From NCBI RefSeq assembly GCF_947623445.1, contig NC_135241.1, positions 23,314,501-23,378,500 of the forward strand: a stretch of DNA of 64,000 bases, given 5' to 3'. Position 1 is the first letter of the stretch, and each line of letters opens with the position of its first letter. The notes under the pieces are model-generated. The model was not told where the DNA came from, did no database searches, and was given only the letters and a program-made list of their open reading frames with translations. Position numbers and translations under genes: made by a program. Shown here one piece after another: positions 2,078 to 61,357 of the stretch. The stretch comes from Clavelina lepadiformis (lineage: Eukaryota > Chordata > Ascidiacea > Aplousobranchia > Clavelinidae).

Positions 2078-2159
2078 GTTGTCGTGGCCGAGTGGTTAAG
2101 GCGACAGACTAGAAATCTGTTGGGCTCTGCCCGCGTAGGTTCGAATCCTGCCGACAACG
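2078..2159 (+). tRNA. tRNA-Ser(AGA), first copy in the window
   Basis: Matches the array consensus in all stems. Anticodon loop CTAGAAA gives AGA, read as IGA after deamination, for TCT and TCC. An octamer ATTTGCAT lies 15 nt upstream. It is the first tRNA after the LINE tail. Confidence 0.93.
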
Positions 2160-2234
2160 CTCAAATAAAATTACAATTTATGAGTGATTCGGAAAAAGTG
2201 CGAATTTATCTATTTGCATTTAACATTAAGTACA

Positions 2235-2316
2235 GTTGTCGTGGCCGAGTGGTTCAGGCGACAGACTAGAAATCTGTTGGGCTCTGCCCGCGTAGGTTCG
2301 AATGCTGCCGACAACG
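2235..2316 (+). tRNA. tRNA-Ser(AGA), D-loop and T-stem variant
   Basis: D-loop reads GTGGTTCAGG instead of GTGGTTAAGG, and the T stem has CTGC changed to GCTGC context (box B ends ATGC), which removes one T-stem pair. Otherwise like the consensus. May be a weak or inactive copy. Confidence 0.85.
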
Positions 2317-2390
2317 CTGAAATAAATTACAATTTATGAGTGATTCGTGAATAGTGCCACTTTAACTATTTGCATTGAACATTAAGTACA

Positions 2391-2472
2391 GTTGTCGTGG
2401 CCGAGTGGTTAAGGCGACAGACTTGAAATCTGTTGGGCTCTGCCCGCGTAGGTTCGAATCCTGCCGACAACT
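2391..2472 (+). tRNA. tRNA-Ser(TGA), discriminator T
   Basis: Anticodon loop CTTGAAA gives TGA, for TCA codons. Stems fit the consensus, but base 73 is T instead of G. G73 is a major element for animal SerRS, so charging may be poor. Confidence 0.88.
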
Positions 2473-2547
2473 CTGAAATAAAATTACAATTTATGAGTGA
2501 TTCGGGAAAAGTGCGATTTTATCTATTTGCATTGAACATTAAGTACA

Positions 2548-2629
2548 GTTGTCGTGGCCGAGTGGTTAAGGCGACAGTTTAGAAATCTGTTGGGCTCTGC
2601 CCGCGTAGGTTCGAATCCTGCCGACAACG
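2548..2629 (+). tRNA. tRNA-Ser(AGA), anticodon-stem variant
   Basis: Anticodon stem 5' strand is ACAGT against TCTGT, so the pair next to the loop is lost. Loop TTAGAAA keeps AGA. Acceptor, variable and T arms are consensus. Confidence 0.85.
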
Positions 2630-2703
2630 CTCAAATAAATTACAATTTATGAGTGATTCGTGAATAGTGCCACTTTAACTATTTGCATTGAACATTAAGT
2701 ACA

Positions 2704-2785
2704 GTTGTCGTGGCCGAGTGGTTAAGGCGACAGACTAGAAATCTGTTGGGCTCTGCCCGCGTAGGTTCGAATCCTGCCGACAACG
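2704..2785 (+). tRNA. tRNA-Ser(AGA), consensus copy
   Basis: Representative intact copy. All stems pair, box A and box B are near-consensus, and discriminator is G. The first run of four T downstream is at 2830-2833, about 45 nt after the mature 3' end, so a long trailer is expected. Confidence 0.95.
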
Positions 2786-2829
2786 CTCAAATAAAAATAC
2801 AATTTATGAGTGATTCGGGAATAGTGCGA

Positions 2830-2833
2830 TTTT
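2830..2833 (+). terminator. Candidate Pol III terminator (T4), one example
   Basis: Shortest T run able to stop Pol III after the tRNA at 2704-2785. In units whose spacer reads cgatttt the T4 lies about 44-47 nt past the tRNA. Units reading caacttt or ccacttt have only TTT and no T4 before the next tRNA. Confidence 0.4.
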
Positions 2834-2860
2834 CACACTTTGCATTGAACATTAAGCACA

Positions 2861-2942
2861 GTTGTCGTGGCCGAGTGGTTAAGGCGACAGACTAGAAATC
2901 TGTTGGGCTCTGCCCGCGTAGGTTCGAATTCTGCCGACAACG
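2861..2942 (+). tRNA. tRNA-Ser(AGA), box B variant
   Basis: One change in the 3' T stem (CGAATTC in place of CGAATCC) also alters box B. Other arms are consensus. Confidence 0.87.
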
Positions 2943-3018
2943 CTGAAATAAAATTACGTTTTCATGAGTGATTCCAGAAAAGAGCGATTTTATTTATTTG
3001 CATTGAACATTAAGTACA

Positions 3019-3100
3019 GTTGTCGTGGCCGAGTGGTTAAGGCGACAGACTAGAAATCTGTTGGGCTCTGCCCGCGTAGGTTCGAATCCTGACGACAACG
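3019..3100 (+). tRNA. tRNA-Ser(AGA), T-stem variant
   Basis: The last T-stem base is A instead of C (CCTGA before the acceptor strand), losing one pair. Other arms are consensus. It is the last full copy before the first nested insertion. Confidence 0.87.
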
Positions 3101-3175
3101 CTCAAATAAAATTACAATTTATGAGTAATTCGGGAAAAGTGCGATTTTCACTGTTTGCATTGATCATTAAGCACA

Positions 3176-3197: not shown

Positions 3198-3603
3198 GTG
3201 GTCACTTCCCAATAGAATGAAACTTTTGTACCGGCAAAACGGCGATTGTGACGATTTCGCACTCAAAGCGTCATATTAAAAAAATTAAGAAATTTTCCCG
3301 TTCAATGTGCATGTGACGCCGATGTGGACTATTTTGTTAATATTTTGGCGATAGCCGGTTCCAGGTCTAGGCTTAGTTGTAAGTTTTGTGTGGGTTTGAA
3401 TTTTTGGTATTTTGGAATATTTGTCTTAAAATTTTAAGATAAAAACTTGTTGTAAAGTTTAGGCAGTTGTCATAGAAAACTGGTTACATGGATTCTGTCT
3501 AAATTAAGACTGTAGGCAGTCAAAACCTAGGTCTCGCTGCAAGCCAAAATTCAGGATAAGTTTATGATGTAGTTTTGCGATGGTAGCTTCTTGATTTAAT
3601 GTA

Positions 3604-4900
3604 GGGGAAGGTGGGGTAAAGCCGACCAACTTGGTAAAGTGGCACACCCATCTTATTTTCTTAATAAAGTTTTTTAACCGCGCGGATACCACTAAGTTTA
3701 GTGAAGCATGACATAACGTGGTTGCACACGCCATTATTCGAGGTTACGTGGAAAAACAGGCAAGAAAAGGCACGGAATTCGTTTTTTGTACTCTCTGATC
3801 TATTGAAAGGTATGTCTTGTAACTTAGATTTTATTTTACAAACATAAGGTAGAAGTTTGGTTGAATGGTAGAAAGAAGTTTTACTGAATCACGTACGCAT
3901 TACATAGGGGTGGGGGTAAAGTGGACCTATGATCCTGATCCTGATCCTGATCCTGATCCATATTGATCCTGTTCCAACCAACACCGAATCTTACTCCGTT
4001 AATGTTAGTTCAACTAGCATTGACTTGTGTGATGGCAGAAATATTGGCTTAGATGCGGCTGGTCTTCCCGAGATGCCTGAATCGTTACCTGCACAGCCAA
4101 TAGATGTAGCCCAACCGGCCTCTCCTGAAGATGCAAATTTCAGTTTCACAATTATAAGTCCTGTTGAACTGCTTCCTATGCCGAAAGCAGCTCACACTCG
4201 CCAAAAGAGGAAGTCTAAGACAGGTGCAACTGCTATTTTAACCAGTTCACCATACAAGAAGCAGTTGGCTGCAACGAATCGTAGTCAATCCGCGGTATCT
4301 GGCAACAGCAGTAAAATAAGTTCATCGAAAAAGCGTTCTATGAAGAAAGCTAAGGTTTCCAGGTCATCAATGCAGCAGAAGGACACAGTCGATGAAAGTG
4401 ATAACAACGTAGATGCAGAATGCTTTTACTGCAACGAAATGTATTGCAAATCATCCTAGAATGATGGGTGGATCCAGTGCTCCAAATGCATGCGATGGGC
4501 GCATGAAGCCTGCTCTGGGTGTAATGAAGAGGATGACAACATTATTTGTGAATTAAGTTTTTTAAAATTGATGGTGAACTGCGATTACTTTCATAACTAC
4601 TTCGCTTATGATGACAATTTGTAAATAAATTGATTGTGATGTGGAACAAATTGCCTTGTTTACTCAAAACTTACGGTGGTCCACTTTAGCCCACATGTGT
4701 GGGGTAAAGTGGACTATTGGAGGTTCTTTTAAATCAAAAAAAAGTTATGTAAGAAAGCAAGCAATCAATAAAAGGGCACTTCAAAAATTAGCGAAATACC
4801 TTTGATTTAACTCTCAAAACAAAAAAGTCAAATGTTTTGGTGAAATCAGTGAATTGTAACGATTTAAGACTTAGGTGGTCCGCTTTACCCCACCCTCCCC
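3604..4900 (+). mobile_element. pogo/Tigger-like non-autonomous transposon, copy 1
   Basis: A 1297-bp element flanked by TA (3602-3603, 4901-4902) inside the TTAA element. Terminal inverted repeats begin GGGGAAGGTGGGGTAAAG on the left and GGGGAGGGTGGGGTAAAG on the complement of the right. GGTAAAGTGG recurs inside near 3633, near 3916 and in an inverted pair near 4680-4712, like repeated transposase-binding sites. The interior keeps only the transposase tail; the N-terminal DNA-binding and catalytic DDE parts are missing. A possible splice donor (AAAGGTATGT, near 3807) may mark an old 5' UTR intron. Confidence 0.85.
3929..4459 (+). pseudogene. pogo-like transposase C-terminal remnant, copy 1
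   Basis: Open frame of 176 codons. The first ten residues come from a GATCCT hexamer repeat and are not native. Residues 77-87 (SPVELLPMPKA) and 103-113 (ILTSSPYKKQL) match the conserved tail after the DDE domain in pogo/Tigger transposases. Residues 134-142 are basic, and CFYC (165-168) opens a cysteine-rich finger. A TAG stops the frame at 176, but the same frame continues with WIQCSKCMRWAHEACSGC, the rest of a PHD-like finger. The stop is in all ten copies, so it predates amplification. No catalytic residues remain. Confidence 0.8.
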
Positions 4901-4946
4901 TACTTTCCATTGAAAAGCCTATCCTTTTGAATTGGGACATGACCCC

Positions 4947-5400: not shown

Positions 5401-5482
5401 GTTGTCGTGGCCGAGTGGTTAAGGCGACAGACTTGAAATCTGTTGGGCTCTGCCCGCGTAGGTTCGAATCCTGCCGACAACG
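5401..5482 (+). tRNA. tRNA-Ser(TGA), representative intact copy
   Basis: Consensus in all arms except the wobble base: loop CTTGAAA gives anticodon TGA for TCA codons. It shows that isoacceptors in the array can differ by base 34 alone. The spacer after it carries ACGTTTTC, an early T4 about 14 nt past the tRNA. Confidence 0.94.
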
Positions 5483-7906
5483 CTCAAATAAAATTACGTT
5501 TTCATGAGTGATTCGAGAATAGTGCGATTATATCTATTTGCATTGAACATTAAGTACTGTTGTCGTGGCCGACAGGTTAAGGCGACAGACTAGAAATCTG
5601 TTGGGCTCTGCCCGCGTAGGTTCGAATCCTGCCGACAACGCTGAAATAAATTACAATTTATGAGTGATTCGTGAAAAGTGCCACTTTAACTATTTGCATT
5701 GAACATTAAATACAATTGTCGTGGCCGAGTCGTTAAGGCGACAGACTTGAAATCTGTTGGGCTCTGCCCGCGTAGGTTCGAATCCTGCCGACAACGCTCA
5801 AATAAAATTACAATTTATGAGTGATTCGGGAAAAGTGCGATTTTATCTATTTGCATTGAACATTAAGCACAGTTGTCGTGGCCAAGTGGTTAAGGCGACA
5901 GACTCGAAATCTGTTGGGCTCTGCCCGCGTAGGTTCGAATCCTGCCGACAACGCTGAAATAAAATTACAATTCATGAGTGATTCGAGAAAAGAGCGATTT
6001 TATCTATTTGCATTGAACATTAAGCACAGTTGTCGTGGCCGAGTGGTTAAAGCGACAGACTAGAAATCTGTTATGCTCTGCCCGCGTAGGTTCGAATCCT
6101 GCCGACAACGCTCAAATAAAATTACAATTTATGAGTGATTCGAGAAAAGAACGATTTTATCTATTTGCATTGAACATTAAGTACAGTTGTCGTGGCCGAG
6201 TAGTTAAGGTGACAAACTAGAAATCTGTTAGGCTCTGCCCGCGTAGGTTCGAATCCTGCCGACAACGCTGAAATAAATTACAATTTATGAGTGATTCGTG
6301 AATAGTGCGATTTTATCTATTTGCATTGAACATTAAGTACAGTTGTCGTGGCCGAGTGGTTAAGGCGACAGACTAGAAATTTGTTGGGCTCTGCCCGCGT
6401 AGGTTCGAATCCTGCCGACAACGCTCAAATAAAATTACAATTTATGAGTGATTCGGGAAAAGTGCGATTTTCAGTATTTGCATTGAACATTAAGCAAAGT
6501 TGTCGTGGCCGAGTGGTTAAGGCGACAGACTTGAAATCTGTTGGGCTCTGCCCGCGTAGCTTCGAATCAAGTCGACAACGCTGAAATAAAATTACGTTTT
6601 CATGAGTGATTCGAAAAAAGAGCGATTTTATCTATTTGCATTGAACATTAAGTACAGTTGTCGTGGCCTAGTGGTTAAGGCGATAGACTAGAAATTTGTT
6701 GGGCTCTGCCCGCGTAGGTTCGAATCCTGCCGTAAACGCTCAAATAAATTACAATTTATGAGTGATTCGTGAAAAGTGCAACTTTAACTATTTGCATTGA
6801 ACATTAAGTACAGTTGTCGTGGCCGAGTGGTTAAGGCGACAGATTAGAAATCTGTTAGGCTCTGCCCGCGTAGGTTCGAATCCTGCCGACAACGCTGAAA
6901 TAAATTACAATTTATGAGTGATTCGTGAATAGTGCGATTTTATCTATTTGCATTGAAAATTAAGCACAGTTGTCGTGGCCGAGTGGTTAAGGCGACAGAT
7001 TAGAAATCTGTTGGGCTCTGCCCGCGTAGCTTCGAATCCTGCCGACAACGCTCAAATAAAATTACAATTTATGAGTGATTCGGGAAAAGTGCGAATTTAT
7101 CTATTTTCATTTAACATTAAGTACAGTTGTCGTGGCCGAGTGGTTAAGGCGACAGACTCGAAATCTGTTGGGCTCTGCCCGCGTAGGTTCGAATCCTGCC
7201 GACAACGCTCAAATAAATTACAATTTATGAGTGATTCGGGAATAGTGCGATTTTATCTATTTGCATTGAACATTAAGTACAGTTGTCGTGGCCGAGTGGT
7301 TAAGGCGACAGACTTGAAATCTGTTGGGCTCTGCCCGAGTAGGTTCGAATGCTGCCGACAAAGGTGAAATAAATTACAATTTATGAGTGATTCGTGAAAA
7401 GTGCAACTTTAACTATTTGCATTGAACATTAAGTACAGTTGTCGTGGCCGAGTGGTTAAGGCGACAGACTAGAAATCTGTTGGGCTCCGCCCGCGTAGGT
7501 TCGAATCCTGCCGACAACGCTCAAATAAATTACAATTTATGAGTGATTCGTGAATAGTGCAACTATAACTATTTGCATTGAACATTAAGTACAGTTGTCG
7601 TGGCCGAGTGGTTAAGGCGACAGACTAGAAATCTGTTGGGCTCTGCCCGCGTAGGTTCGAATGCTGCCGACAACGCTGAAATAAATTACAATTTATGAGT
7701 GATTCGTGAATAGTGCGATTTTATCTATTTGCATTGAACATTAAGTACAGTTGTCGTGGCCGAGTGGTTAAGGCGACAGATTAGAAATCTGTTGGGCTCT
7801 GCCCGCGTAGGTTCGAATCCTGCCGACAACGCTCAAATAAAATTACAATTTATGAGTGATTCGGGAAAAGTGCGATTTTATCTATTTGCATTGAACATTA
7901 AGCAAA

Positions 7907-7988: not shown

Positions 7989-8498
7989 CTCAAATAAAAT
8001 TACAATTTATGAGTAATTCGGGAAAAGTGCGATTTTCACTGTTTGCATTGATCATTAAGCACAATTGTCGTGGTCGAGTGGTTAAGTGGTCACTTCCCAA
8101 TAGAATGAAACTTTTGTACCGGCAAAACGGCGATTGTGACGTTTTCGCACTCAAAGCGTCATATTAAAAAAATTAAGAAATTTTCCCGTTCAATGTGCAT
8201 GTGACGCCGATGTGGACTATTTTGTTAATATTTTGGCGATAGCCGGTTCCAGGTCTAGGCTTAGTTGTAAGTTTTGTGTGGGTTTGAATTTTTGGTATTT
8301 TGGAATATTTGTCTTAAAATTTTAAGATAAAAACTTGTTGTAAAGTTTAGGCAGTTGTCATAGAAAACTGGTTACATGGATTCTGTCTAAATTAAGACTG
8401 TAGGGCGTAGGCAGTCAAAACCTAGGTCTCGCTGCAAGCCAAAATTCAGGATAAGTTTATGATGTAGTTTTGCGATGGTAGCTTCTTGATTTAATGTA

Positions 8499-9807
8499 GG
8501 GGAAGGTGGGGTAAAGCCGACCAACTTGGTAAAGTGGCACACCCCTCTTATTTTCTTAATAAAGTTTTTTAAGCGCGCGGATACCACTAAGTTTAGTGAA
8601 GCATGACATAACGTGGTTGCACACGCCATTATTCGAGGTTACGTGGAAAAACAGGCAAGAAAAGGCACGGAATTCGTTTTTTGTACTCTCTGATCTATTG
8701 AAAGGTATGTCTTGTAACTTAGATTTTATTTTACAAACATAAGGTAGACGTTTGGTTGAATGGTAGAAAGAAGTTTTACTGAATCACGTACGCATTACAT
8801 AGGGGTGGGGGTAAAGTGGACCTATGATCCTGATCCTGATCCTGATCCTGATCCTGATCCTGATCCATATTGATCCTGTTCCAACCAACACCGAATCTTA
8901 CTCCGTTAATGTTAGTTCAACTAGCATTGACTTGTGTGATGGCAGAAATATTGGCTTAGATGCGCCTGGTCTTCCCGAGATGCCTGAATCGTTACCTGCA
9001 CAGCCAATAGATGTAGCCCAACCGGCCTCTCCTGAAGATGCAAATTTCAGTTTCACAATTATAAGTCCTGTTGAACTGCTTCCTATGCCGAAAGCAGCTC
9101 ACACTCGCCAAAAGAGGAAGTCTAAGACAGGTGCAACTGCTATTTTAACCAGTTCACCATACAAGAAGCAGTTGGCTGCAACGAATCGTAGTCAATCCGC
9201 GGTATCTGGCAACAGCAGTAAAATAAGTTCATCGAAAAAGCGTTCTATGAAGAAAGCTAAGGTTTCCAGGTCATCAATGCAGCAGAAGGACACAGTCGAT
9301 GAAAGTGATAACAACGTAGATGCAGAATGCTTTTACTGCAACGAAATGTATTGCAAATCATCCTAGAATGATGGGTGGATCCAGTGCTCCAAATGCATGC
9401 GATGGGCGCATGAAGCCTGCTCTGGGTGTAATGAAGAGGATGACAACATTATTTGTGAATTAAGTTTTTAAAAATTGATGGTGAACTGCGATTACTTTCA
9501 TAACTACTTCGCTTATGATGACAATTTGTAAATAAATTGATTGTGATGTGGAACAAATTGCCTTGTTTACTCAAAACTTACGGTGGTCCACTTTAGCCCA
9601 CATGTGTGGGGTAAAGTGGACTATTGGGGGTTCTTTTAAATCAAAAAAAAGTTATGTAAGAAAGCAAGCAATCAATAAAAGGGCACTTCAAAAATTAGCG
9701 AAATACCTTTGATTTAACTCTCAAAACAAAAAAGTCAAATGTTTTGGTGAAATCAGTGAATTGTAACGATTTAAGACTTAGGTGGTCCGCTTTACCCCAC
9801 CCTCCCC
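8499..9807 (+). mobile_element. pogo-like non-autonomous transposon, copy 2
   Basis: 1309 bp, 12 bp longer than the usual 1297 because the GATCCT tract has two extra hexamers. TA flanks at 8497-8498 and 9808-9809. Confidence 0.85.
8824..9366 (+). pseudogene. pogo-like transposase tail remnant, copy 2
   Basis: 180 codons, like copy 1 plus four residues (LILI) from two extra hexamers, and A43 changed to P at the matching site. Ends at the shared TAG inside the cysteine finger. Confidence 0.78.
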
Positions 9808-9853
9808 TACTTTCCATTGAAAAACCTATCCTTTTGAATTGGAACATGACCCC

Positions 9854-13932: not shown

Positions 13933-14338
13933 GTGGTCACTTCCCAATAGAATGAAACTTTTGTACCGGCAAAACGGCGATTGTGACGTTTTCGCACTCA
14001 AAGCGTCATATTAAAAAAATTAAGAAATTTTCCCGTTCAATGTGCATGTGACGCCGATGTGGACTATTTTGTTAATATTTTGGCGATAGCCGGTTCCAGG
14101 TCTAGGCTTAGTTGTAAGTTTTGTGTGGGTTTGAATTTTTGGTATTTTGGAATATTTGTCTTAAAATTTTAAGATAAAAACTTGTTGTAAAGTTTAGGCA
14201 GTTGTCATAGAAAACTGGTTACATGGATTCTGTCTAAATTAAGACTGTAGGCAGTCAAAACCTAGGTCTCGCTGCAAGCCAAAATTCAGGATAAGTTTAT
14301 GATGTAGTTTTGCGATGGTAGCTTCTTGATTTAATGTA

Positions 14339-15635
14339 GGGGAAGGTGGGGTAAAGCCGACCAACTTGGTAAAGTGGCACACCCCTCTTATTTTCTTAAT
14401 AAAGTTTTTTAAGCGCGCGGATACCACTAAGTTTAGTGAAGCATGACATAACGTGGTTGCACACGCCATTATTCGAGGTTACGTGGAAAAACAGGCAAGA
14501 AAAGGCACGGAATTCGTTTTTTGTACTCTCTGATCTATTGAAAGGTATGTCTTGTAACTTAGATTTTATTTTACAAACATAAGGTAGACGTTTGGTTGAA
14601 TGGTAGAAAGAAGTTTTACTGAATCACGTACGCATTACATAGGGGTGGGGGTAAAGTGGACCTATGATCCTGATCCTGATCCTGATCCTGATCCATATTG
14701 ATCCTGTTCCAACCAACACCGAATCTTACTCCGTTAATGTTAGTTCAACTAGCATTGACTTGTGTGATGGCAGAAATATTGGCTTAGATGTGGCTGGTCT
14801 TCCCGAGATGCCTGAATCGTTACCTGCACAGCCAATAGATGTAGCCCAACCGGCCTCTCCTGAAGATGCAAATTTCAGTTTCACAATTATAAGTCCTGTT
14901 GAACTGCTTCCTATGCCGAAAGCAGCTCACACTCGCCAAAAGAGGAAGTCTAAGACAGGTGCAACTGCTATTTTAACCAGTTCACCATACAAGAAGCAGT
15001 TGGCTGCAACGAATCGTAGTCAATCCGCGGTATCTGGCAACAGCAGTAAAATAAGTTCATCGAAAAAGCGTTCTATGAAGAAAGCTAAGGTTTCCAGGTC
15101 ATCAATGCAGCAGAAGGACACAGTCGATGAAAGTGATAACAACGTAGATGCAGAATGCTTTTACTGCAACGAAATGTATTGCAAATCATCCTAGAATGAT
15201 GGGTGGATCCAGTGCTCCAAATGCATGCGATGGGCGCATGAAGCCTGCTCTGGGTGTAATGAAGAGGATGACAACATTATTTGTGAATTAAGTTTTTAAA
15301 AATTGATGGTGAACTGCGATTACTTTCATAACTACTTCGCTTATGATGACAATTTGTAAATAAATTGATTGTGATGTGGAACAAATTGCCTTGTTTACTC
15401 AAAACTTACGGTGGTCCACTTTAGCCCACATGTGTGGGGTAAAGTGGACTATTGGGGGTTCTTTTAAATCAAAAAAAAGTTATGTAAGAAAGCAAGCAAT
15501 CAATAAAAGGGCACTTCAAAAATTAGCGAAATACCTTTGATTTAACTCTCAAAACAAAAAAGTCAAATGTTTTGGTGAAATCAGTGAATTGTAACGATTT
15601 AAGACTTAGGTGGTCCGCTTTACCCCACCCTCCCC
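14339..15635 (+). mobile_element. pogo-like non-autonomous transposon, copy 3
   Basis: 1297 bp, TA flanks, same inner architecture. Nearly identical to copy 4. Confidence 0.85.
14664..15194 (+). pseudogene. pogo-like transposase tail remnant, copy 3
   Basis: 176 codons. Differs from the majority by A43 to V (LDVAGL). Same TAG. Confidence 0.78.
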
Positions 15636-15681
15636 TACTTTCCATTGAAAAACCTATCCTTTTGAATTGGAACATGACCCC

Positions 15682-17723: not shown

Positions 17724-18129
17724 GTGGTCACTTCCCAATAGAATGAAACTTTTGTACCGGCAAAACGGCGATTGTGACGTTTTCGCACTCAAAGCGTCAT
17801 ATTAAAAAAATTAAGAAATTTTCCCGTTCAATGTGCATGTGACGCCGATGTGGACTATTTTGTTAATATTTTGGCGATAGCCGGTTCCAGGTCTAGGCTT
17901 AGTTGTAAGTTTTGTGTGGGTTTGAATTTTTGGTATTTTGGAATATTTGTCTTAAAATTTTAAGATAAAAACTTGTTGTAAAGTTTAGGCAGTTGTCATA
18001 GAAAACTGGTTACATGGATTCTGTCTAAATTAAGACTGTAGGCAGTCAAAACCTAGGTCTCGCTGCAAGCCAAAATTCAGGATAAGTTTATGATGTAGTT
18101 TTGCGATGGTAGCTTCTTGATTTAATGTA

Positions 18130-19426
18130 GGGGAAGGTGGGGTAAAGCCGACCAACTTGGTAAAGTGGCACACCCCTCTTATTTTCTTAATAAAGTTTTT
18201 TAAGCGCGCGGATACCACTAAGTTTAGTGAAGCATGACATAACGTGGTTGCACACGCCATTATTCGAGGTTACGTGGAAAAACAGGCAAGAAAAGGCACG
18301 GAATTCGTTTTTTGTACTCTCTGATCTATTGAAAGGTATGTCTTGTAACTTAGATTTTATTTTACAAACATAAGGTAGACGTTTGGTTGAATGGTAGAAA
18401 GAAGTTTTACTGAATCACGTACGCATTACATAGGGGTGGGGGTAAAGTGGACCTATGATCCTGATCCTGATCCTGATCCTGATCCATATTGATCCTGTTC
18501 CAACCAACACCGAATCTTACTCCGTTAATGTTAGTTCAACTAGCATTGACTTGTGTGATGGCAGAAATATTGGCTTAGATGCGGCTGGTCTTCCCGAGAT
18601 GCCTGAATCGTTACCTGCACAGCCAATAGATGTAGCCCAACCGGCTTCTCCTGAAGATGCAAATTTCAGTTTCACAATTATAAGTCCTGTTGAACTGCTT
18701 CCTATGCCGAAAGCAGCTCACACTCGCCAAAAGAGGAAGTCTAAGACAGGTGCAACTGCTATTTTAACCAGTTCACCATACAAGAAGCAGTTGGCTGCAA
18801 CGAATCGTAGTCAATCCGCGGTATCTGGCAACAGCAGTAAAATAAGTTCATCGAAAAAGCGTTCTATGAAGAAAGCTAAGGTTTCCAGGTCATCAATGCA
18901 GCAGAAGGACACAGTCGATGAAAGTGATAACAACGTAGATGCAGAATGCTTTTACTGCAACGAAATGTATTGCAAATCATCCTAGAATGATGGGTGGATC
19001 CAGTGCTCCAAATGCATGCGATGGGCGCATGAAGCCTGCTCTGGGTGTAATGAAGAGGATGACAACATTATTTGTGAATTAAGTTTTTAAAAATTGATGG
19101 TGAACTGCGATTACTTTCATAACTACTTCGCTTATGATGACAATTTGTAAATAAATTGATTGTGATGTGGAACAAATTGCCTTGTTTACTCAAAACTTAC
19201 GGTGGTCCACTTTAGCCCACATGTGTGGGGTAAAGTGGACTATTGGGGGTTCTTTTAAATCAAAAAAAAGTTATGTAAGAAAGCAAGCAATCAATAAAAG
19301 GGCACTTCAAAAATTAGCGAAATACCTTTGATTTAACTCTCAAAACAAAAAAGTCAAATGTTTTGGTGAAATCAGTGAATTGTAACGATTTAAGACTTAG
19401 GTGGTCCGCTTTACCCCACCCTCCCC
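18130..19426 (+). mobile_element. pogo-like non-autonomous transposon, copy 4
   Basis: 1297 bp, TA flanks, same architecture as copy 3. Confidence 0.85.
18455..18985 (+). pseudogene. pogo-like transposase tail remnant, copy 4
   Basis: 176 codons with the majority protein sequence and one silent change (ccggcttct). Same TAG. Confidence 0.78.
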
Positions 19427-22277
19427 TACTTTCCATTGAAAAACCTATCCTTTTGAATTGGAACATGACCCCTTAAGGCGACAGACTAGCAATCTGTTTG
19501 GCTCTGCCCTCGAAGTTTCGAATTCTGTTCACAACGCTGGAAAAAAATGACGTTTTCATAAGTGTTTCGGGAAAAGTGCGATTTTATCTATTTGCATTGA
19601 ACATTAAGCCCCGTTTTTCGTGGCCGAGTGGTTAAGGCGACAGACTTGAAATCTGTTGGGATCTGCACGCGTAGGTTCGAATCCTGTCGACAACGCTGAA
19701 ATAAAATTACAATTTATGAGTGATTCGTGAAAAGTGTCAATTTCAATATTTGCATTGAACATTAAGCACAGTTGTCGTGGCCGAGTGGTTAAGGCGACAG
19801 ATTAGAAATCTGTTGGGCTCTGCCCGCGTAGGTTCGAATCCTGCCGACAACGCTGAAATAAATTACAATTTATGAGTGATTCGGGAAAAGTGCGAATTTA
19901 TCTATTTTCATTTAACATTAAGTACAGTTGTCGTGGCCGAGTGGTTAAGGCGACAGACTTGAAATCTGTTGGGCTCTGCCCGCGTAGGTTCGAATGCTGC
20001 CGACAACGCTCAACTAAAATTACGTTTTCATGAGTGATTCGAGAATAGTGCGATTATATCTATTTGCATTGAACATTAAGTACTGTTGTCGTGGCCGACA
20101 GGTTAAGGCGACAGACGAGAAATCTGTTGGGCTCTGCCCGCGTAGGTTCGAATCCTGCCGACAACGCTGAAATAAATTACAATTTATGAGTGATTCGTGA
20201 AAAGTGCCACTTTAACTATTTGCATTGAACATTAAGTACAGTTGTCGTGGCCGAGTGGTTAAGGCGACAGACTAGAAATCTGTTGGGCTCTGCCCGCGTA
20301 GGTTCGAATCCTGCCGACAACGCTCAAATAAAATTACAATTTATGAGTGATTCGGGAAAAGTGCGATTTTATCTATTTGCATTGAACATTAAGCACAGTT
20401 GTCGTGGCCAAGTGGTTAAGGCGACAGACTCGAAATCTGTTGGGCTCTGCCCGCGTAGGTTCGAATCCTGCCGACAACGCTCAAATAAAATTACAATTCA
20501 TGAGTGATTCGAGAAAAGAGCGATTTTATCTGTTTGCATTGAACATTAAGCACAGTTGTCGTGGCCGAGTGGTTAAAGCGACAGACTAGAAATCTGTTAT
20601 GCTCTGCCCGCGTAGGTTCGAATCCTGCCGACAACGCTCAAATAAAATTACAATTTATGAGTGATTCGAGAAAAGAACGATTTTATCTATTTGCATTGAA
20701 CATTAAGTACAGTTGTCGTGGCCGAGTAGTTAAGGTGACAAACTAGAAATCTGTTAGGCTCTGCCCGCGTAGGTTCGAATCCTGCCGACAACGCTGAAAT
20801 AAATTACAATTTATGAGTGATTCGTGAATAGTGCGATTTTATCTATTTGCATTGAACATTAAGTACAGTTGTCGTGGCCGAGTGGTTAAGGCGACAGACT
20901 AGAAATTTGTTGGGCTCTGCCCGCGTAGGTTCGAATCCTGCCGACAACGCTCAAATAAAATTACAATTTATGAGTGATTCGGGAAAAGTGCGATTTTCAG
21001 TATTTGCATTGAACATTAAGCAAAGTTGTCGTGGCCGAGTGGTTAAGGCGACAGACTTGAAATCTGTTGGGCTCTGCCCGCGTAGCTTCGAATCCTGTCG
21101 ACAACGCTGAAATAAAATTACGTTTTCATGAGTGATTCGAAAAAAGAGCGATTTTATCTATTTGCATTGAACATTAAGTACAGTTGTCGTGGCCTAGTGG
21201 TTAAGGCGATAGACTAGAAATTTGTTGGGCACTGCCCGCGTAGGTTCGAATCCTGCCGTAAACGCTGAAATAAATTACAATTTATGAGTGATTCGTGAAA
21301 AGTGCAACTTTAACTATTTGCATTGAACATTAAGTACAGTTGTCGTGGCCGAGTGGTTAAGGCGACAGACTAGAAATCTGTTGGGCTCCGCCCGCGTAGG
21401 TTCGAATCCTGCCGACAACGCTGAAATAAATTACAATTTATGAGTGATTCGTGAATAGTGCAACTTTAACTATTTGCATTGAACATTAAGTACAGTTTTT
21501 CGTGGCCGAGTGGTTAAGGCGACAGACTTGAAATCTGTTGGGCTCTGCCCGCGTAGGTTCGAATCCTGCCGACAACGCTGAAATAAATTACAATTTATGA
21601 GTGATTCGTGAATAGTGCGATTTTATCTATTTGCATTGAACATTAAGTACAGTTGTCGTGGCCGAGTGGTTAAGGCGACAGACTAGAAATCTGTTGGGCT
21701 CTGCCCGCGTAGGTTCGAATCCTGTCGACAACGCTGAAATAAATTACAATTTATGAGTGATTCGGGAAAAGTGCGAATTTATCTATTTGCATTTAACATT
21801 AAGTACAGTTGTCGTGGCCGAGTGGTTAAAGCGACAGACTAGAAATCTGTTGGGCTCCGCCCGCGTAGGTTCGAATCCGGCCGACAACGCTGAAATAAAT
21901 TACAATTTATGAGTGATTCGTGAATAGTGCAACTTTAACTATTTGCATTGAACATTAAGTACAGTTTTTCGTGGCCGAGTGGTTAAGGCGACCGACTTGA
22001 AATCTGTTGGGCTCTGCCCGCGTAGGTTCGAATCCTGCCGACAACGCTGAAATAAATTACAATTTATGAGTGATTCGTGAATAGTGCGATTTTATCTATT
22101 TGCATTGAACATTAAGTACAGTTGTCGTGGCCGAGTGGTTAAGGCGACAGACTAGAAATCTGTTGGGCTCTTCTCGCGTAGGTTCGAATCCTGCCGACAA
22201 CGCCCAAATAAAATTACAATTTATGAGTGATTCGGGAAAAGTGCGATTTTCACTATTTGCATTGAACATTAAGCAAA

Positions 22278-22359
22278 GTTGTCGTGGCCGAGTGGTTAAG
22301 GCGACAGAGTAGTAATCTGTTGGGCTCTGCCCGCGTAGGTTCGAATGCTGCCGACAACG
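22278..22359 (+). tRNA. tRNA-Ser body with anticodon AGT (copy 1 of 2)
   Basis: Loop GTAGTAA places AGT (threonine ACT codon) in a serine tRNA body with long variable arm and G73. Base 32 is G instead of C, and box B ends ATGC, costing one T-stem pair. A related copy near 16919 has GTAGAAA, so the loop gained G32 first and then the change at 36. SerRS does not read the anticodon, so if expressed this tRNA could put serine at threonine codons. It may equally be dead. Confidence 0.75.
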
Positions 22360-34317: not shown

Positions 34318-34363
34318 TACTTTCCATTGAAAAACCTATCCTTTTGAATTGGAACATGACCCC

Positions 34364-38424: not shown

Positions 38425-38470
38425 TACTTTCCATTGAAAAACCTATCCTTTTGAATTGGAACATGACCCC

Positions 38471-44889: not shown

Positions 44890-45295
44890 GTGGTCACTTC
44901 CCAATAGAATGAAACTTTTGTACCGGCAAAACGGCGATTGTGACGTTTTCGCACTCAAAGCGTCATATTAAAAAAATTAAGAAATTTTCCCGTTCAATGT
45001 GCATGTGACGCCGATGTGGACTATTTTGTTAATATTTTGGCGATAGCCGGTTCCAGGTCTAGGCTTAGTTGTAAGTTTTGTGTGGGTTTGAATTTTTGGT
45101 ATTTTGGAATATTTTTCTTAAAATTTTAAGATAAAAACTTGTTGTAAAGTTTAGGCAGTTGTCATAGAAAACTGGTTACATGGATTCTGTCTAAATTAAG
45201 ACTGTAGGCAGTCAAAACCTAGGTCTCGCTGCAAGCCAAAATTCAGGATAAGTTTATGATGTAGTTTTGCGATGGTAGCTTCTTGATTTAATGTA

Positions 45296-46592
45296 GGGGA
45301 AGGTGGGGTAAAGCCGACCAACTTGGTAAAGTGGCACACCCCTCTTATTTTCTTAATAAAGTTTTTTAAGCGCGCGGATACCACTAAGTTTAGTGAAGCA
45401 TGACATAACGTGGTTGCACACGCCATTATTCGAGGTTACGTGGAAAAACAGGCAAGAAAAGGCACGGAATTCGTTTTTTGTACTCTCTGATCTATTGAAA
45501 GGTATGTCTTGTAACTTAGACTTTATTTTACAAACATAAGGTAGACGTTTGGTTGAATGGTAGAAAGAAGTTTTACTGAATCACGTACGCATTACATAGG
45601 GGTGGGGGTAAAGTGGACCTATGATCCTGATCCTGATCCTGATCCTGATCCATATTGATCCTGTTCCAACCAACACCGAATCTTACTCCGTTAATGTTAG
45701 TTCAACTAGCATTGACTTGTGTGATGGCAGAAATATTGGCTTAGATGCGGCTGGTCTTCCCGAGATGCCTGAATCGTTACCTGCACAGCCAATAGATGTA
45801 GCCCAACCGGCCTCTCCTGAAGATGCAAATTTCAGTTTCACAATTATAAGTCCTGTTGAACTGCTTCCTATGCCGAAAGCAGCTCACACTCGCCAAAAGA
45901 GGAAGTCTAAGACAGGTGCAACTGCTATTTTAACCAGTTCACCATACAAGAAGCAGTTGGCTGCAACGAATCGTAGTCAATCCGCGGTATCTGGCAACAG
46001 CAGTAAAATAAGTTCATCGAAAAAGCGTTCTATGAAGAAAGCTAAGGTTTCCAGGTCATCAATGCAGCAGAAGGACACAGTCGATGAAAGTGATAACAAC
46101 GTAGATGCAGAATGCTTTTACTGCAACGAAATGTATTGCAAATCATCCTAGAATGATGGGTGGATCCAGTGCTCCAAATGCATGCGATGGGCGCATGAAG
46201 CCTGCTCTGGGTGTAATGAAGAGGATGACAACATTATTTGTGAATTAAGTTTTTAAAAATTGATGGTGAACTGCGATTACTTTCATAACTACTTCGCTTA
46301 TGATGACAATTTGTAAATAAATTGATTGTGATGTGGAACAAATTGCCTTGTTTACTCAAAACTTACGGTGGTCCACTTTAGCCCACATGTGTGGGGTAAA
46401 GTGGACTATTGGGGGTTCTTTTAAATCAAAAAAAAGTTATGTAAGAAAGCAAGCAATCAATAAAAGGGCACTTCAAAAATTAGCGAAATACCTTTGATTT
46501 AACTCTCAAAACAAAAAAGTCAAATGTTTTGGTGAAATCAGTGAATTGTAACGATTTAAGACTTAGGTGGTCCGCTTTACCCCACCCTCCCC
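45296..46592 (+). mobile_element. pogo-like non-autonomous transposon, copy 7
   Basis: 1297 bp, TA flanks. Confidence 0.85.
45621..46151 (+). pseudogene. pogo-like transposase tail remnant, copy 7
   Basis: 176 codons, majority protein sequence, same TAG. Confidence 0.78.
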
Positions 46593-46638
46593 TACTTTCC
46601 ATTGAAAAACCTATCCTTTTGAATTGGAACATGACCCC

Positions 46639-48996: not shown

Positions 48997-49402
48997 GTGG
49001 TCACTTCCCAATAGAATGAAACTTTTGTACCGGCAAAACGGCGATTGTGACGTTTTCGCACTCAAAGCGTCATATTAAAAAAATTAAGAAATTTTCCCGT
49101 TCAATGTGCATGTGACGCCGATGTGGACTATTTTGTTAATATTTTGGCGATAGCCGGTTCCAGGTCTAGGCTTAGTTGTAAGTTTTGTGTGGGTTTGAAT
49201 TTTTGGTATTTTGGAATATTTTTCTTAAAATTTTAAGATAAAAACTTGTTGTAAAGTTTAGGCAGTTGTCATAGAAAACTGGTTACATGGATTCTGTCTA
49301 AATTAAGACTGTAGGCAGTCAAAACCTAGGTCTCGCTGCAAGCCAAAATTCAGGATAAGTTTATGATGTAGTTTTGCGATGGTAGCTTCTTGATTTAATG
49401 TA

Positions 49403-50699
49403 GGGGAAGGTGGGGTAAAGCCGACCAACTTGGTAAAGTGGCACACCCCTCTTATTTTCTTAATAAAGTTTTTTAAGCGCGCGGATACCACTAAGTTTAG
49501 TGAAGCATGACATAACGTGGTTGCACACGCCATTATTCGAGGTTACGTGGAAAAACAGGCAAGAAAAGGCACGGAATTCGTTTTTTGTACTCTCTGATCT
49601 ATTGAAAGGTATGTCTTGTAACTTAGACTTTATTTTACAAACATAAGGTAGACGTTTGGTTGAATGGTAGAAAGAAGTTTTACTGAATCACGTACGCATT
49701 ACATAGGGGTGGGGGTAAAGTGGACCTATGATCCTGATCCTGATCCTGATCCTGATCCATATTGATCCTGTTCCAACCAACACCGAATCTTACTCCGTTA
49801 ATGTTAGTTCAACTAGCATTGACTTGTGTGATGGCAGAAATATTGGCTTAGATGCGGCTGGTCTTCCCGAGATGCCTGAATCGTTACCTGCACAGCCAAT
49901 AGATGTAGCCCAACCGGCCTCTCCTGAAGATGCAAATTTCAGTTTCACAATTATAAGTCCTGTTGAACTGCTTCCTATGCCGAAAGCAGCTCACACTCGC
50001 CAAAAGAGGAAGTCTAAGACAGGTGCAACTGCTATTTTAACCAGTTCACCATACAAGAAGCAGTTGGCTGCAACGAATCGTAGTCAATCCGCGGTATCTG
50101 GCAACAGCAGTAAAATAAGTTCATCGAAAAAGCGTTCTATGAAGAAAGCTAAGGTTTCCAGGTCATCAATGCAGCAGAAGGACACAGTCGATGAAAGTGA
50201 TAACAACGTAGATGCAGAATGCTTTTACTGCAACGAAATGTATTGCAAATCATCCTAGAATGATGGGTGGATCCAGTGCTCCAAATGCATGCGATGGGCG
50301 CATGAAGCCTGCTCTGGGTGTAATGAAGAGGATGACAACATTATTTGTGAATTAAGTTTTTAAAAATTGATGGTGAACTGCGATTACTTTCATAACTACT
50401 TCGCTTATGATGACAATTTGTAAATAAATTGATTGTGATGTGGAACAAATTGCCTTGTTTACTCAAAACTTACGGTGGTCCACTTTAGCCCACATGTGTG
50501 GGGTAAAGTGGACTATTGGGGGTTCTTTTAAATCAAAAAAAAGTTATGTAAGAAAGCAAGCAATCAATAAAAGGGCACTTCAAAAATTAGCGAAATACCT
50601 TTGATTTAACTCTCAAAACAAAAAAGTCAAATGTTTTGGTGAAATCAGTGAATTGTAACGATTTAAGACTTAGGTGGTCCGCTTTACCCCACCCTCCCC
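49403..50699 (+). mobile_element. pogo-like non-autonomous transposon, copy 8
   Basis: 1297 bp, TA flanks. Confidence 0.85.
49728..50258 (+). pseudogene. pogo-like transposase tail remnant, copy 8
   Basis: 176 codons, majority protein sequence, same TAG. Confidence 0.78.
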
Positions 50700-50745
50700 T
50701 ACTTTCCATTGAAAAACCTATCCTTTTGAATTGGAACATGACCCC

Positions 50746-54668: not shown

Positions 54669-55074
54669 GTGGTCACTTCCCAATAGAATGAAACTTTTGT
54701 ACCGGCAAAACGGCGATTGTGACGTTTTCGCACTCAAAGCGTCATATTAAAAAAATTAAGAAATTTTCCCGTTCAATGTGCATGTGACGCCGATGTGGAC
54801 TATTTTGTTAATATTTTGGCGATAGCCGGTTCCAGGTCTAGGCTTAGTTGTAAGTTTTGTGTGGGTTTGAATTTTTGGTATTTTGGAATATTTGTCTTAA
54901 AATTTTAAGATAAAAACTTGTTGTAAAGTTTAGGCAGTTGTCATAGAAAATTGGTTACATGGATTCTGTCTAAATTAAGACTGTAGGCAGTCAAAACCTA
55001 GGTCTCGCTGCAAGCCAAAATTCAGGATAAGTTTATGATGTAGTTTTGCGATGGTAGCTTCTTGATTTAATGTA

Positions 55075-56371
55075 GGGGAAGGTGGGGTAAAGCCGACCAA
55101 CTTGGTAAAGTGGCACACCCCTCTTATTTTCTTAATAAAGTTTTTTAAGCGCGCGAATACCACTAAGTTTAGTGAAGCATGACATAACGTGGTTGCACAC
55201 GCCATTATTCGAGGTTACGTGGAAAAACAGGCAAGAAAAGGCACGGAATTCGTTTTTTGTACTCTCTGATCTATTGAAAGGTATGTCTTGTAACTTAGAT
55301 TTTATTTTACAAACATAAGGTAGACGTTTGGTTGAATGGTAGAAAGAAGTTTTACTGAATCACGTACGCATTACATAGGGGTGGGGGTAAAGTGGACCTA
55401 TGATCCTGATCCTGATCCTGATCCTGATCCATATTGATCCTGTTCCAACCAACACCGAATCTTACTCCGTTAATGTTAGTTCAACTAGCATTGACTTGTG
55501 TGATGGCAGAAATATTGGCTTAGATGCGGCTGGTCTTCCCGAGATGCCTGAATCGTTACCTGCACAGCCAATAGATGTAGCCCAACCGGCCTCTCCTGAA
55601 GATGCAAATTTCAGTTTCACAATTATAAGTCCTGTTGAACTGCTTCCTATGCCGAAAGCAGCTCACACTCGCCAAAAGAGGAAGTCTAAGACAGGTGCAA
55701 CTGCTATTTTAACCAGTTCACCATACAAGAAGCAGTTGGCTGCAACGAATCGTAGTCAATCCGCGGTATCTGGCAACAGCAGTAAAATAAGTTCATCGAA
55801 AAAGCGTTCTATGAAGAAAGCTAAGGTTTCCAGGTCATCAATGCAGCAGAAGGACACAGTCGATGAAAGTGATAACAACGTAGATGCAGAATGCTTTTAC
55901 TGCAACGAAATGTATTGCAAATCATCCTAGAATGATGGGTGGATCCAGTGCTCCAAATGCATGCGATGGGCGCATGAAGCCTGCTCTGGGTGTAATGAAG
56001 AGGATGACAACATTATTTGTGAATTAAGTTTTTAAAAATTGATGGTGAACTGCGATTACTTTCATAACTACTTCGCTTATGATGACAATTTGTAAATAAA
56101 TTGATTGTGATGTGGAACAAATTGCCTTGTTTACTCAAAACTTACGGTGGTCCACTTTAGCCCACATGTGTGGGGTAAAGTGGACTATTGGGGGTTCTTT
56201 TAAATCAAAAAAAAGTTATGTAAGAAAGCAAGCAATCAATAAAAGGGCACTTCAAAAATTAGCGAAATACCTTTGATTTAACTCTCAAAACAAAAAAGTC
56301 AAATGTTTTGGTGAAATCAGTGAATTGTAACGATTTAAGACTTAGGTGGTCCGCTTTACCCCACCCTCCCC
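55075..56371 (+). mobile_element. pogo-like non-autonomous transposon, copy 9
   Basis: 1297 bp, TA flanks. Confidence 0.85.
55400..55930 (+). pseudogene. pogo-like transposase tail remnant, copy 9
   Basis: 176 codons, majority protein sequence, same TAG. Confidence 0.78.
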
Positions 56372-56417
56372 TACTTTCCATTGAAAAACCTATCCTTTTG
56401 AATTGGAACATGACCCC

Positions 56418-58459: not shown

Positions 58460-58865
58460 GTGGTCACTTCCCAATAGAATGAAACTTTTGTACCGTCAAA
58501 ACGGCGATTGTGACGATTTCGCACTCAAAGCGTCATATTAAAAAAATTAAGAAATTTTCCGATTCAATGTGCATGTGACGCCGATGTGGACTATTTTGTT
58601 TATATTTTGGCGATAGCCGGTTCCAGGTCTAGGCTTAGTTGTAAGTTTTGTGTGTGTTTGAATTTTTGGTATTTTGGAATATTTGTCTTAAAATTTTAAG
58701 ATAAAAACTTGTTGTAAAGTTTAGGCAGTTGTCATAGAAAATTGGTTACATGGATTCTGTCTAAATTAAGACTGTAGGCAGTCATAACTTAGGTCTCGTT
58801 GCAAGCCAAAATTCAGGATAAGTTTATGACGTAGTTTTGCGATGGTAGCTTCTTGATTTAATGTA

Positions 58866-60155
58866 GGGGAAGGTGGGGTAAAGCGGACCAACGGGGTAAA
58901 GTGGCACACCCCTCTTATTTTCTTAATAAAGTTTTTTAACCGCGCGGATACCACTAAGTTTAGTGAAGCATGACATAACGTGGTTGCACACGCCATTATT
59001 CGAGGTTACGTGGATAAGCAGGCAAGAAAAGGCACGGAATTCGTTTTTTGTACTCTCTGATCTATTGAAAGGTATGTCTTGTAACTTAGATTTTATTTTA
59101 CAAACATAAGGTAGAAGTTTGGTTGAATGGTAGAAAGGAGTTTTACTGTATCACGTACGCATTACATAGGGGTGGGGGTAAAGTGGACCTAAGATCCTGA
59201 TCTTGATCCTGATCCATATTGATCCTGTTCCAACCAACACCGAATCTTACTCCGTTAATGTTAGTTCAACTAGCATTGACTTGTGTGATGGCAGAAATAT
59301 TGGTTTAGATGCGGCTGGTCTTCCCGAGATGCCTGAATCGTTACCTGCACAGCCAATAGATGTAGCCCAACCGTCCTCTCCTGAAGATGCAAATTTCAGT
59401 TTCACAATTATAAGTCCTGTTGAACTGCTTCCTATGCCGAAAGCAGCTCACACTCGCCAAAAGAGGAAGTCTAAGACAGGTGCAACTGCTATTTTAACCA
59501 GTTCACCATACAAGAAGCAGTTGGCTGCAACGAATCGTAGCCAATCCGCGGTATCTGGCAACAGCAGTAAAATAAGTTCATCGAAAAAGCGTTCTATGAA
59601 GAAAGCTAAGGTTTCCAGGTCATCAATGCAGCAGAAGGACACAGTCGATGAAAGTGATAACAACGTAGATTCAGAATGCTTTTACTGCAACGAAATGTAT
59701 TCCAAATCATCCTAGAATGATGGGTGGATCCAGTGCTCCAAATGAATGCGATGGGCGCATGAAGCCTGCTCTGGGTGTAATGAAGAGTATGACAACTTTA
59801 TTTATGAATTAATTTTTTAAAAATTGATGATGAACTGCGATTACTTTCATAACTACTTCGCTTATGATGACAATTTGTAAATAAATTGATTGTGATGTGG
59901 AACAAATTGCCTTGTTTACTCAAAACTTACGGTGGTCCACTTTACCCCACATGTGTGGGGTAAAGTGGACTATTGGAAGTGCTTTTAAATCAAAAAAAAG
60001 TTATGTAAGAAAGCAAGCAATCAATAAAAGGGCACTTCAAAAATTAGCGAAATACCTTTGAGTTAACTCTCAAAAAAACAAGTCAAATGTTTTGGTGAAA
60101 TCAGTGAATTGTAACGATTTAAGACTTAGGTGGTCCACTTTACCTAACCCTCCCC
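58866..60155 (+). mobile_element. pogo-like non-autonomous transposon, copy 10
   Basis: 1290 bp, TA flanks at 58864-58865 and 60156-60157. The GATCCT tract is shorter and interrupted. Its left end reads GTAAAGCGGACCA, which pairs better with the right end than in other copies. The inner inverted pair at 59935-59970 is perfect here: two 17-nt arms around a 2-nt centre. Confidence 0.85.
59203..59715 (+). pseudogene. pogo-like transposase tail remnant, copy 10
   Basis: 170 codons from a later ATG, because the first ATG is AAG here. Differences include AQPSSPE for AQPASPE, VDSEC for VDAEC and MYSKSS for MYCKSS, so one finger cysteine is lost. Same TAG as in the other nine. Confidence 0.78.
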
Positions 60156-60342
60156 TACATTCCATTGAAAAGCCTATCCCTTTGAATTGGGACATGATCT
60201 CTTAAGGCGACAGACTAGCAATCTGTTTGGCTCTGCCCTCGTAGGTTCGAATTCTGTTCACAACGCTGGAATAAAATAACGTTTTCATAAGTGTTTCGGG
60301 AAAAGTGCGATTTTATCTATTTGCATTGAACATTAAGCCCCG

Positions 60343-60424
60343 TTTTTCGTGGCCGAGTGGTTAAGGCGACAGACTTGAAATCTGTTGGGATCTGCCCTCG
60401 TAGGTTCGAATCCTGTCGACAACG
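60343..60424 (+). pseudogene. tRNA-Ser(TGA)-like, TTTTTCG acceptor strand
   Basis: Equivalent of the first copy after each insertion, with variable arm GGATCTGCCCTC. Acceptor pairs 1 and 4 are broken. Confidence 0.75.
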
Positions 60425-60498
60425 CTGAAATAAATTACAATTTATGAGTTATTCGTGAATAGTGCCACTTTCACTATTTGCATTGAACATTAAGTACA

Positions 60499-60580
60499 GT
60501 TGTCGTGGCCGAGTGGTTAAGGCGACAGACTTGAAATCTGTTGGGCTCTGCCCGCGTAGGTTCGAATCCTGCCGACAACG
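60499..60580 (+). tRNA. tRNA-Ser(TGA), consensus copy
   Basis: All arms match the array consensus, loop CTTGAAA. Followed by an early T4 in ACGTTTTC and later an eight-T run near 60626, the best terminator in the array. Confidence 0.94.
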
Positions 60581-60656
60581 CTGAAATGAAATTACGTTTT
60601 CATAAGTGATTCGGGAAAAGTTCTATTTTTTTTCTTTGCATTGAACATTAAGCAAA

Positions 60657-60738
60657 GTTGTCGTGGCCGAGTGGTTAAGGCGACAGACTTGAAATCTGTT
60701 GGGCTCTGCCCGCGTAGGTTCGAATCCTGCCGATAACG
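60657..60738 (+). tRNA. tRNA-Ser(TGA), acceptor variant
   Basis: 3' acceptor strand CGATAAC in place of CGACAAC turns one G-C pair into G-T, which is tolerable. Other arms are consensus. Confidence 0.9.
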
Positions 60739-60814
60739 CTGAAATAAAATTACGCTTTCATGAGTGATTCGAGAAAAGAGCGATTTTATCTATTTGCATT
60801 GAACATTAAGCACA

Positions 60815-60896
60815 GTTGTCTTGGTCGAGTGGTTAAAGCGACAGACTAGAAATCTGTTGGGCTCTGCCCGCGTAGGTTCGAATCCTGCCGACAACG
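60815..60896 (+). tRNA. tRNA-Ser(AGA), acceptor and box A variant
   Basis: 5' strand GTTGTCT ends in T instead of G, and the D arm reads GGTCGAG. One acceptor pair is lost. Other arms are consensus. Confidence 0.87.
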
Positions 60897-60972
60897 CTGA
60901 AATGAAATCACGTTTTCATATGTGATTCGGGAAAAGTGCGATTTTATTTCTTTGCATTGAACATTAAGCAAA

Positions 60973-61054
60973 GTTGTCGTGGCCGAGTGGTTAAGGCGAC
61001 AGACTAGAAATCTGTTGGGCTCTGCCCGCGTAGGTTCGAATCCTGCCGATAACG
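60973..61054 (+). tRNA. tRNA-Ser(AGA), acceptor variant
   Basis: As at 60657 for the acceptor (CGATAAC, one G-T pair), with loop CTAGAAA. Confidence 0.9.
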
Positions 61055-61129
61055 CTCAAATAAAATTACGTTTTATGATTCATTCGGGAAAAGTGCGAGT
61101 TTCACTATTTGCATTGAACATTAAGCACA

Positions 61130-61211
61130 GTTGTCGTGGCCGAGCGGTTAAGGCGACAGACTTGAAATCTGTTGAGCTCTGCCCGCGTAGGTTCGAATCC
61201 TGCCGACAACG
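61130..61211 (+). tRNA. tRNA-Ser(TGA), last well-formed copy
   Basis: D-loop reads GAGCGGTTAAGG, the only such change here, and the variable arm TGAGCTC. Acceptor, anticodon and T arms pair fully. Because it lies at the edge it may be closest to the ancestral single-copy gene. Confidence 0.92.
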
Positions 61212-61287
61212 CTGACAGAAAGTTACGTTTCCATGAGTGATTTGGGAGAATTGCGAGTTTCTTTATTTCTATTGAACATTAAGCACA

Positions 61288-61357
61288 GTTGTTGTTGCCG
61301 CGTTGTTAAGGCGAAAGACTGGATATCTGTTGGGCTTTGACAAATTCGGGTTTCAGT
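61288..61357 (+). pseudogene. Decayed tRNA-Ser at the array's right edge
   Basis: The 5' half is recognisable (GTTGTTGTTGCCGCGTTG...AAGGCG), the anticodon region is ACTGGATATCTG, and the variable and T arms no longer fold. It marks the limit of the array. Confidence 0.75.

Follow-up and report, generated by a model that had tools for sequence, protein, structure and literature searches.

The window analysed here, a stretch of 64,000 nucleotides from the ascidian Clavelina lepadiformis (contig NC_135241.1, positions 23,314,501 to 23,378,500), contains a tandem array of serine tRNA genes that spans 59 kb, from about position 2006 to about position 61352, with all units arranged head to tail on the + strand. 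This array was probably once a real tRNA-Ser(UCN) gene cluster that turned into a satellite through unequal crossing-over and gene conversion, and whose copies are now mostly under relaxed selection. An earlier description, made from the letters of the sequence and referred to below as the original prediction, had called the region a satellite-like array of about 256 tRNA-Ser genes.

Anchored parsing of the array yielded 256 complete units, showing that both the earlier hand count and the coordinates were right, and these units comprise 131 distinct sequences. Beyond them, an insertion interrupts ten further tRNA copies, and one degenerate copy (61288-61352, + strand) forms the last unit before unique sequence begins. 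ARAGORN called 255 tRNAs in the whole window, all 255 on the + strand, and the Rfam tRNA family (RF00005) likewise gave 255 matches over the whole window, including a tRNA at 6499 that ARAGORN did not call. A period of 156/157 bp had been proposed, and this is borne out by the unit lengths (156 bp in 135 units, 157 bp in 100), with a further 21 units of 158 bp. Given that single arrays reported by Tandem Repeats Finder in the window score up to 22,639, a chance origin of the repeat signal is not an issue.

The consensus unit consists of an 82-nt eukaryotic-type tRNA-Ser, with a long variable arm, boxes A and B and G73, plus a spacer of about 74 nt. The claim that one tRNA gene is repeated throughout was wrong, as three serine isoacceptors are mixed within the one array. 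Among the 256 units, the anticodon is AGA in 181, TGA in 43, CGA in 30 and AGT in 2. AGA, TGA and CGA make up the usual eukaryotic anticodon set for the four UCN codons. Canonical examples on the + strand are the tRNA-Ser(AGA) of the first complete unit (2078-2159, 61.6 bits with Rfam), a tRNA-Ser(TGA) at 5401-5482 (64.4 bits) and a tRNA-Ser(CGA) at 7126-7207 (62.9 bits). Anticodon positions 35 and 36 are invariant (G and A) save for one mutant type, AGT, in which a tRNA with a serine body carries a threonine anticodon (22278-22359, + strand, 47.6 bits; second copy at 24311-24392). Because these two copies share an identical tRNA sequence, they probably go back to a single mutation that was later duplicated. 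If expressed and charged by SerRS, such a tRNA would place serine at threonine codons. When a tree of the units was built without the anticodon column, 22 anticodon changes were needed, compared with a mean of 35.6 (minimum 32) after shuffling; we do not claim independent anticodon switches from this tree because the units recombine. Within the spacer, most of the variation lies at unit positions 114-131, and the block TATTTGCATTGAACATTAAG at unit positions 133-152 (e.g., approximately 2210-2229), directly upstream of each tRNA, varies little.

All 256 copies score between 41.0 and 64.4 bits against the Rfam tRNA model, for which the threshold is 29, and about 153 of them reach at least 55 bits (a hand count from the Rfam tables). 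The features of a nuclear tRNA-Ser(UCN), namely the cloverleaf, the long variable arm, the two boxes, G73 and a UCN anticodon, are present in the array, with AGA, TGA or CGA as the anticodon in 254 of the 256 copies. The original prediction that most copies keep their stems, boxes and G73 holds for the boxes and for G73 taken singly (box A is intact in 238 copies, box B in 203, and G73 is present in 255). However, it holds for the stems in only about half of the copies, 127 being without a broken stem pair, and it fails when the features are taken jointly: every tested feature (stem pairs, both boxes and the tested conserved residues) is intact in 121 of 256 copies (47%), of which 87 have the anticodon AGA, 20 CGA and 14 TGA. 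The remaining 135 copies are damaged. The commonest defect, found in 52 copies, is a broken pair 62-70 in the T-stem (standard numbering G53-C61), and loss of the acceptor pairs 1-81 and 4-78 is also common; no compensated pair change was found at any tabulated stem pair. Nevertheless, the copies are not nearly all pseudogenes, an outcome that would have spoken against the original prediction, since all of them lie above the Rfam threshold and 121 are fully canonical.

The many decayed copies, together with a spacer of some 74 nt in each unit, might instead suggest a tandem tRNA-derived short interspersed nuclear element (SINE) or a tRNA-pseudogene satellite, without ancestry as working genes in place. 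We regard this as highly improbable. A SINE would have a tRNA head, an unrelated body and a poly-A or LINE-like tail (LINE, long interspersed nuclear element), but here the units stand strictly head to tail, none ends in such a tail, and the spacer leads directly into the next tRNA. It is also at odds with the scores of 41 to 64 bits and with the tRNA-Ser features that the copies retain, namely G73, a long variable arm and genuine UCN anticodons of three kinds. Also highly improbable in our view is that the array serves as a chromatin boundary or structural element, in which what is kept would be the reiterated TFIIIC sites, boxes A and B, rather than tRNA products. Box A and box B are each intact in most copies, the 156-bp unit is near nucleosome size, and a human tRNA array at 1q23.3 has been implicated as a boundary (PMC4041453). 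However, box B is a target of common mutations, 53 copies being altered at positions 62 and 70, which is what would be expected without selection for TFIIIC binding.

A tRNA-Ser gene should be followed shortly by a terminator for RNA polymerase III (Pol III), a stretch of at least four T residues (T4), but most units lack one in that position. Such a stretch starts at +17 after the tRNA in 20 of the 256 units, and no other unit has a T4 in the first 20 nt behind its tRNA; in 143 units it lies 44-54 nt after the tRNA, and in 93 there is none before the next tRNA. Most units therefore fall short of a conventional, complete transcription unit, and most of the canonical copies, too, have no terminator close by. 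If transcribed, most units would give long trailers or run on into the next unit; transcription of the array may well be mostly silent or confined to a subset of units. The T4 at +17 (GTTTTC) occurs mainly in TGA units, such as that at 5401-5482 (16 of 43, versus 4 of 181 AGA units), and is frequent among the units at the right edge (60343-61212, + strand), six non-duplicated units of which four are TGA and three carry the T4 at +17. This T4 is possibly the original terminator, which the amplified units would have lost and the right-edge units, perhaps a less homogenised and older form, would have retained.

The substitutions in the tRNA copies look much as they would if structure did not matter. 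Among 61 distinct tRNA substitutions, 42 (69%) damage a pair, a box or a tested conserved base, compared with 67% for random single substitutions (P = 0.89; anticodon base 34 was left out). Low-frequency variants are similarly dense in the tRNA (40 of 77 sites) and the spacer (35 of 61 sites; P = 0.61). Common variants are rarer in the tRNA (5 of 82 sites) than in the spacer (13 of 74 sites; P = 0.04), and since common variants are the older ones, we read this as a trace of older constraint. Here and below, the P values of the selection tests are guides only, as the units are not independent. From this spectrum, single copies look nearly unconstrained now, the constraint having been older. It is fair to describe the array, as the original prediction did, as a satellite that is at the same time a reservoir of tRNA genes that may be functional, although the reservoir part is weakened because structure-breaking changes are not avoided and most units are without a nearby Pol III terminator. 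The original prediction overlooked the three isoacceptors, the higher-order structure, the origin of all ten inserts in one insertion event, and the exchange between units.

Several observations weigh against relaxed selection as the full account. Recently duplicated blocks differ by 0.84% in the tRNA versus 1.22% in the spacer (P = 0.013; their inserts differ by 0.35%); anticodon position 34 is limited to A, T and C, and G was never seen there in 256 units; and the count of 121 canonical copies exceeds a simple random expectation of about 93, computed by hand. Because the tRNA diverges less than the spacer in the duplicates, and because G34 is absent, weak selection on the pool of copies is possible. 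A stronger proposal is that the array is a working serine tRNA bank, amplified by selection for dosage and kept for high demand, e.g., for serine-rich secreted proteins in one tissue, like the SYY cluster of Arabidopsis, which is silent in most tissues yet active in root cap cells (PMC12308677). In its favor, all three UCN isoacceptors are represented among the fully canonical copies, G35 and A36 almost never change, G34 never appears, and mean diversity in the tRNA (0.045) is about half of that in the spacer (0.088). However, damaging sites are not avoided, 135 copies are damaged with no compensated changes at the tabulated pairs, and a nearby T4 is present in only 20 units, with none at all before the next tRNA in 93. 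We therefore consider selected dosage amplification unlikely. Unlikely, too, is a regulated version of such a bank, in which gene conversion would reshuffle the anticodon base among AGA, TGA and CGA and thereby tune the isoacceptor ratios, and in which Pol III read-through, because most units are without a nearby terminator, would yield long-trailer or multi-tRNA precursors.

Evidence for the conversion of a gene cluster into a satellite comes from the relationships among the units. Adjacent units are 93.1% identical, compared with 93.3% for any two units, whereas the best match of each unit elsewhere in the array averages 99.5%, and 171 of the 256 units have an identical twin. Adjacent units are thus less alike than units set apart by longer periods, as in a higher-order satellite. 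A shift-based scan found repeated blocks of 1.5-8.5 kb at several different offsets, with 98.7-99.7% identity between the copies; the largest duplicated segment is 8.5 kb long (30991-39500, + strand; copy at +12,275 bp, 99.67% identity). The higher-order periods are irregular, with several lags and no single clean higher-order repeat. Within the unit, common sites no more than 15 bp apart show a linkage disequilibrium (r2) of 0.15, which drops to 0.03-0.04 at greater distances. Of 171 site pairs, 93 fail the four-gamete test, and some of these failures may reflect recurrent mutation. This decay inside one unit, together with the four-gamete failures, indicates that exchange tracts are shorter than a unit. 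Divergence is highest, and homogenisation lowest, in the units and the insert closest to the right edge, as would be expected if exchange were concentrated in the middle of the array; homogenisation by exchange, in the core more than at the edges, is a property of satellites.

The same data bear on whether the assembler might have over-expanded a short or collapsed tRNA cluster. Exact repeats within the array reach 2932 bp, which is beyond short-read length and would favor such an artefact. However, the window is without any N, the unit sequences include 131 distinct ones, the blocks differ by scattered substitutions (98.7-99.7% identity), the edges are more divergent than the core, and the right end passes into unique sequence. 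As this pattern fits real unequal exchange and not mechanical duplication, an assembly artefact is very unlikely.

The history of the array is marked by a transposon. The original prediction that the array is interrupted by copies of one nested insertion was accurate: there are ten copies of a single nested element of 1742-1768 bp, 97-100% identical to one another, each lying on the + strand and in one and the same D-loop TTAA. The outer element (452 bp) is flanked by TTAA, and its inverted ends (GTGGTCACTTCCCAAT / GGGGTCATGTCCCAAT) match imperfectly; the inner element (1297 bp) has TA on both sides, ends GGGGAAGGTGGGGTAAAGCCGACCA / GGGGAGGGTGGGGTAAAGCGGACCA and inverted ends GGGGARGGTGGGGTAAAGCSGACCA. 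In the first copy (3198-4946, 1749 bp), the outer element with its TTAA duplication encloses the inner element at 3604-4900. The second copy (8086-9853) measures 1768 bp, and the others lie at 13933-15681, 17724-19472, 32615-34363, 36722-38470, 44890-46638, 48997-50745, 54669-56417 and 58460-60201, the last being nearest the right edge and the most divergent (97% to the others). The same unit types flank all ten inserts, mostly types 28/29 or 28/104 before and 10/11/12 after. Because the ten inserts share both the TTAA site and the flanking unit types, a single insertion event, later amplified with blocks of the array, is indicated behind all of them. The inner element carries an open reading frame (ORF) of 176 amino acids in eight of the ten copies, which had no Pfam family match and which ends in a cysteine motif, FYCNEMYC. 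With this tail the ORF recalls the C-terminal end of pogo-type transposases, which is a lead to a possible relationship.

These results suggest the following course of events for the gene cluster that became a satellite: a small tRNA-Ser(UCN) cluster with AGA, TGA and CGA anticodons would have expanded through unequal crossing-over; one transposon would have landed in the D-loop TTAA of one copy; later rounds of duplication of several-kb blocks would have carried it along, giving rise to the higher-order structure; and gene conversion or crossing-over between units would have shuffled short tracts, the anticodon base included. Because there are hundreds of redundant copies, single copies could then gather structure-breaking changes almost freely, with about half staying canonical.

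The array belongs to a known but rare kind. Tandem tRNA arrays have been described in Entamoeba (PMC2652664), Hydractinia and Nematostella (PMC11067881), Arabidopsis (PMC12308677, PMC11700998) and at human 1q23.3 (PMC4041453), and the Hydractinia paper noted that such an organisation is unusual outside Entamoeba (PMC11067881). The hallmark of the Entamoeba and Hydractinia arrays, head-to-tail near-identical tRNA units, is found here in 256 units of 156-158 bp on one strand. The long head-to-tail arrays of Entamoeba have been attributed to concerted evolution; they fall into 25 types, whose units contain as many as 5 tRNA genes, and they make up more than 10% of the genome and hold almost all of the cell's tRNA genes (PMC2652664). 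In contrast, each short unit of the present array holds a single, near-identical serine gene, the anticodons are mixed, many copies have decayed, and a transposon has been amplified within the array. It differs from the Hydractinia and Nematostella arrays (PMC11067881) in its 74-nt spacer, its three isoacceptors in one array and its higher-order repeats. The SYY cluster of Arabidopsis is also a tandem array containing tRNA-Ser, whose core is bordered by flanks that vary more and are rich in pseudogenes (PMC12308677, PMC11700998), but it consists of about 27 repeats of Ser/Tyr/Tyr units, and its expression has been tested in the plant, whereas our data are sequence only. The human 1q23.3 variable number tandem repeat likewise repeats tRNA genes in tandem, but its 7.3-kb unit, present 9-43 times, carries five tRNA genes that belong to several isotypes, and it has CTCF sites (PMC4041453). 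The Clavelina array is set apart by its very short spacer, its three isoacceptors, its higher-order structure with an amplified transposon and the decay of about half of its copies, and is an unusually dense and mixed example. No description of it was found with satellite-tRNA searches of the open-access literature. Exact-pattern scans for the spacer-tRNA junction gave no match in viral and prokaryotic genome contigs, nor did a scan for the conserved tRNA-Ser core in viral contigs.

On its left, the array is bordered by the 3' part of an L1-type LINE (1-2005, + strand), which runs off the window and has reverse transcriptase (RVT_1) and zf-RVT domains; its best solved relatives include human L1 ORF2p. 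Its ORF ends at 1878, and its A-rich 3' end is joined in phase to the array spacer. The LINE is inserted in the spacer a few nucleotides 3' of where a tRNA would end, a single case only, and the array may continue beyond it, as the original prediction had suggested. To the right of the array, unique sequence is followed by the nearest host gene, a TauD/TfdA-family dioxygenase on the minus strand in exon-like pieces (63032-63999), whose motifs resemble those of gamma-butyrobetaine dioxygenase.

Although of a known kind, this array is an extreme case from which much can be learned, and any functional claim for it is putative. It provides a clear case, at the level of sequence, of a gene turning into a satellite, with many copies that range through all stages between intact and broken, in which one transposon insertion marks the later amplification and exchange between units is measurable. 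It also serves as a warning that a single locus can inflate tRNA gene counts in genome annotations. Finally, it allows a test of whether tRNA genes present in excess are free to decay or are maintained collectively as a pool.

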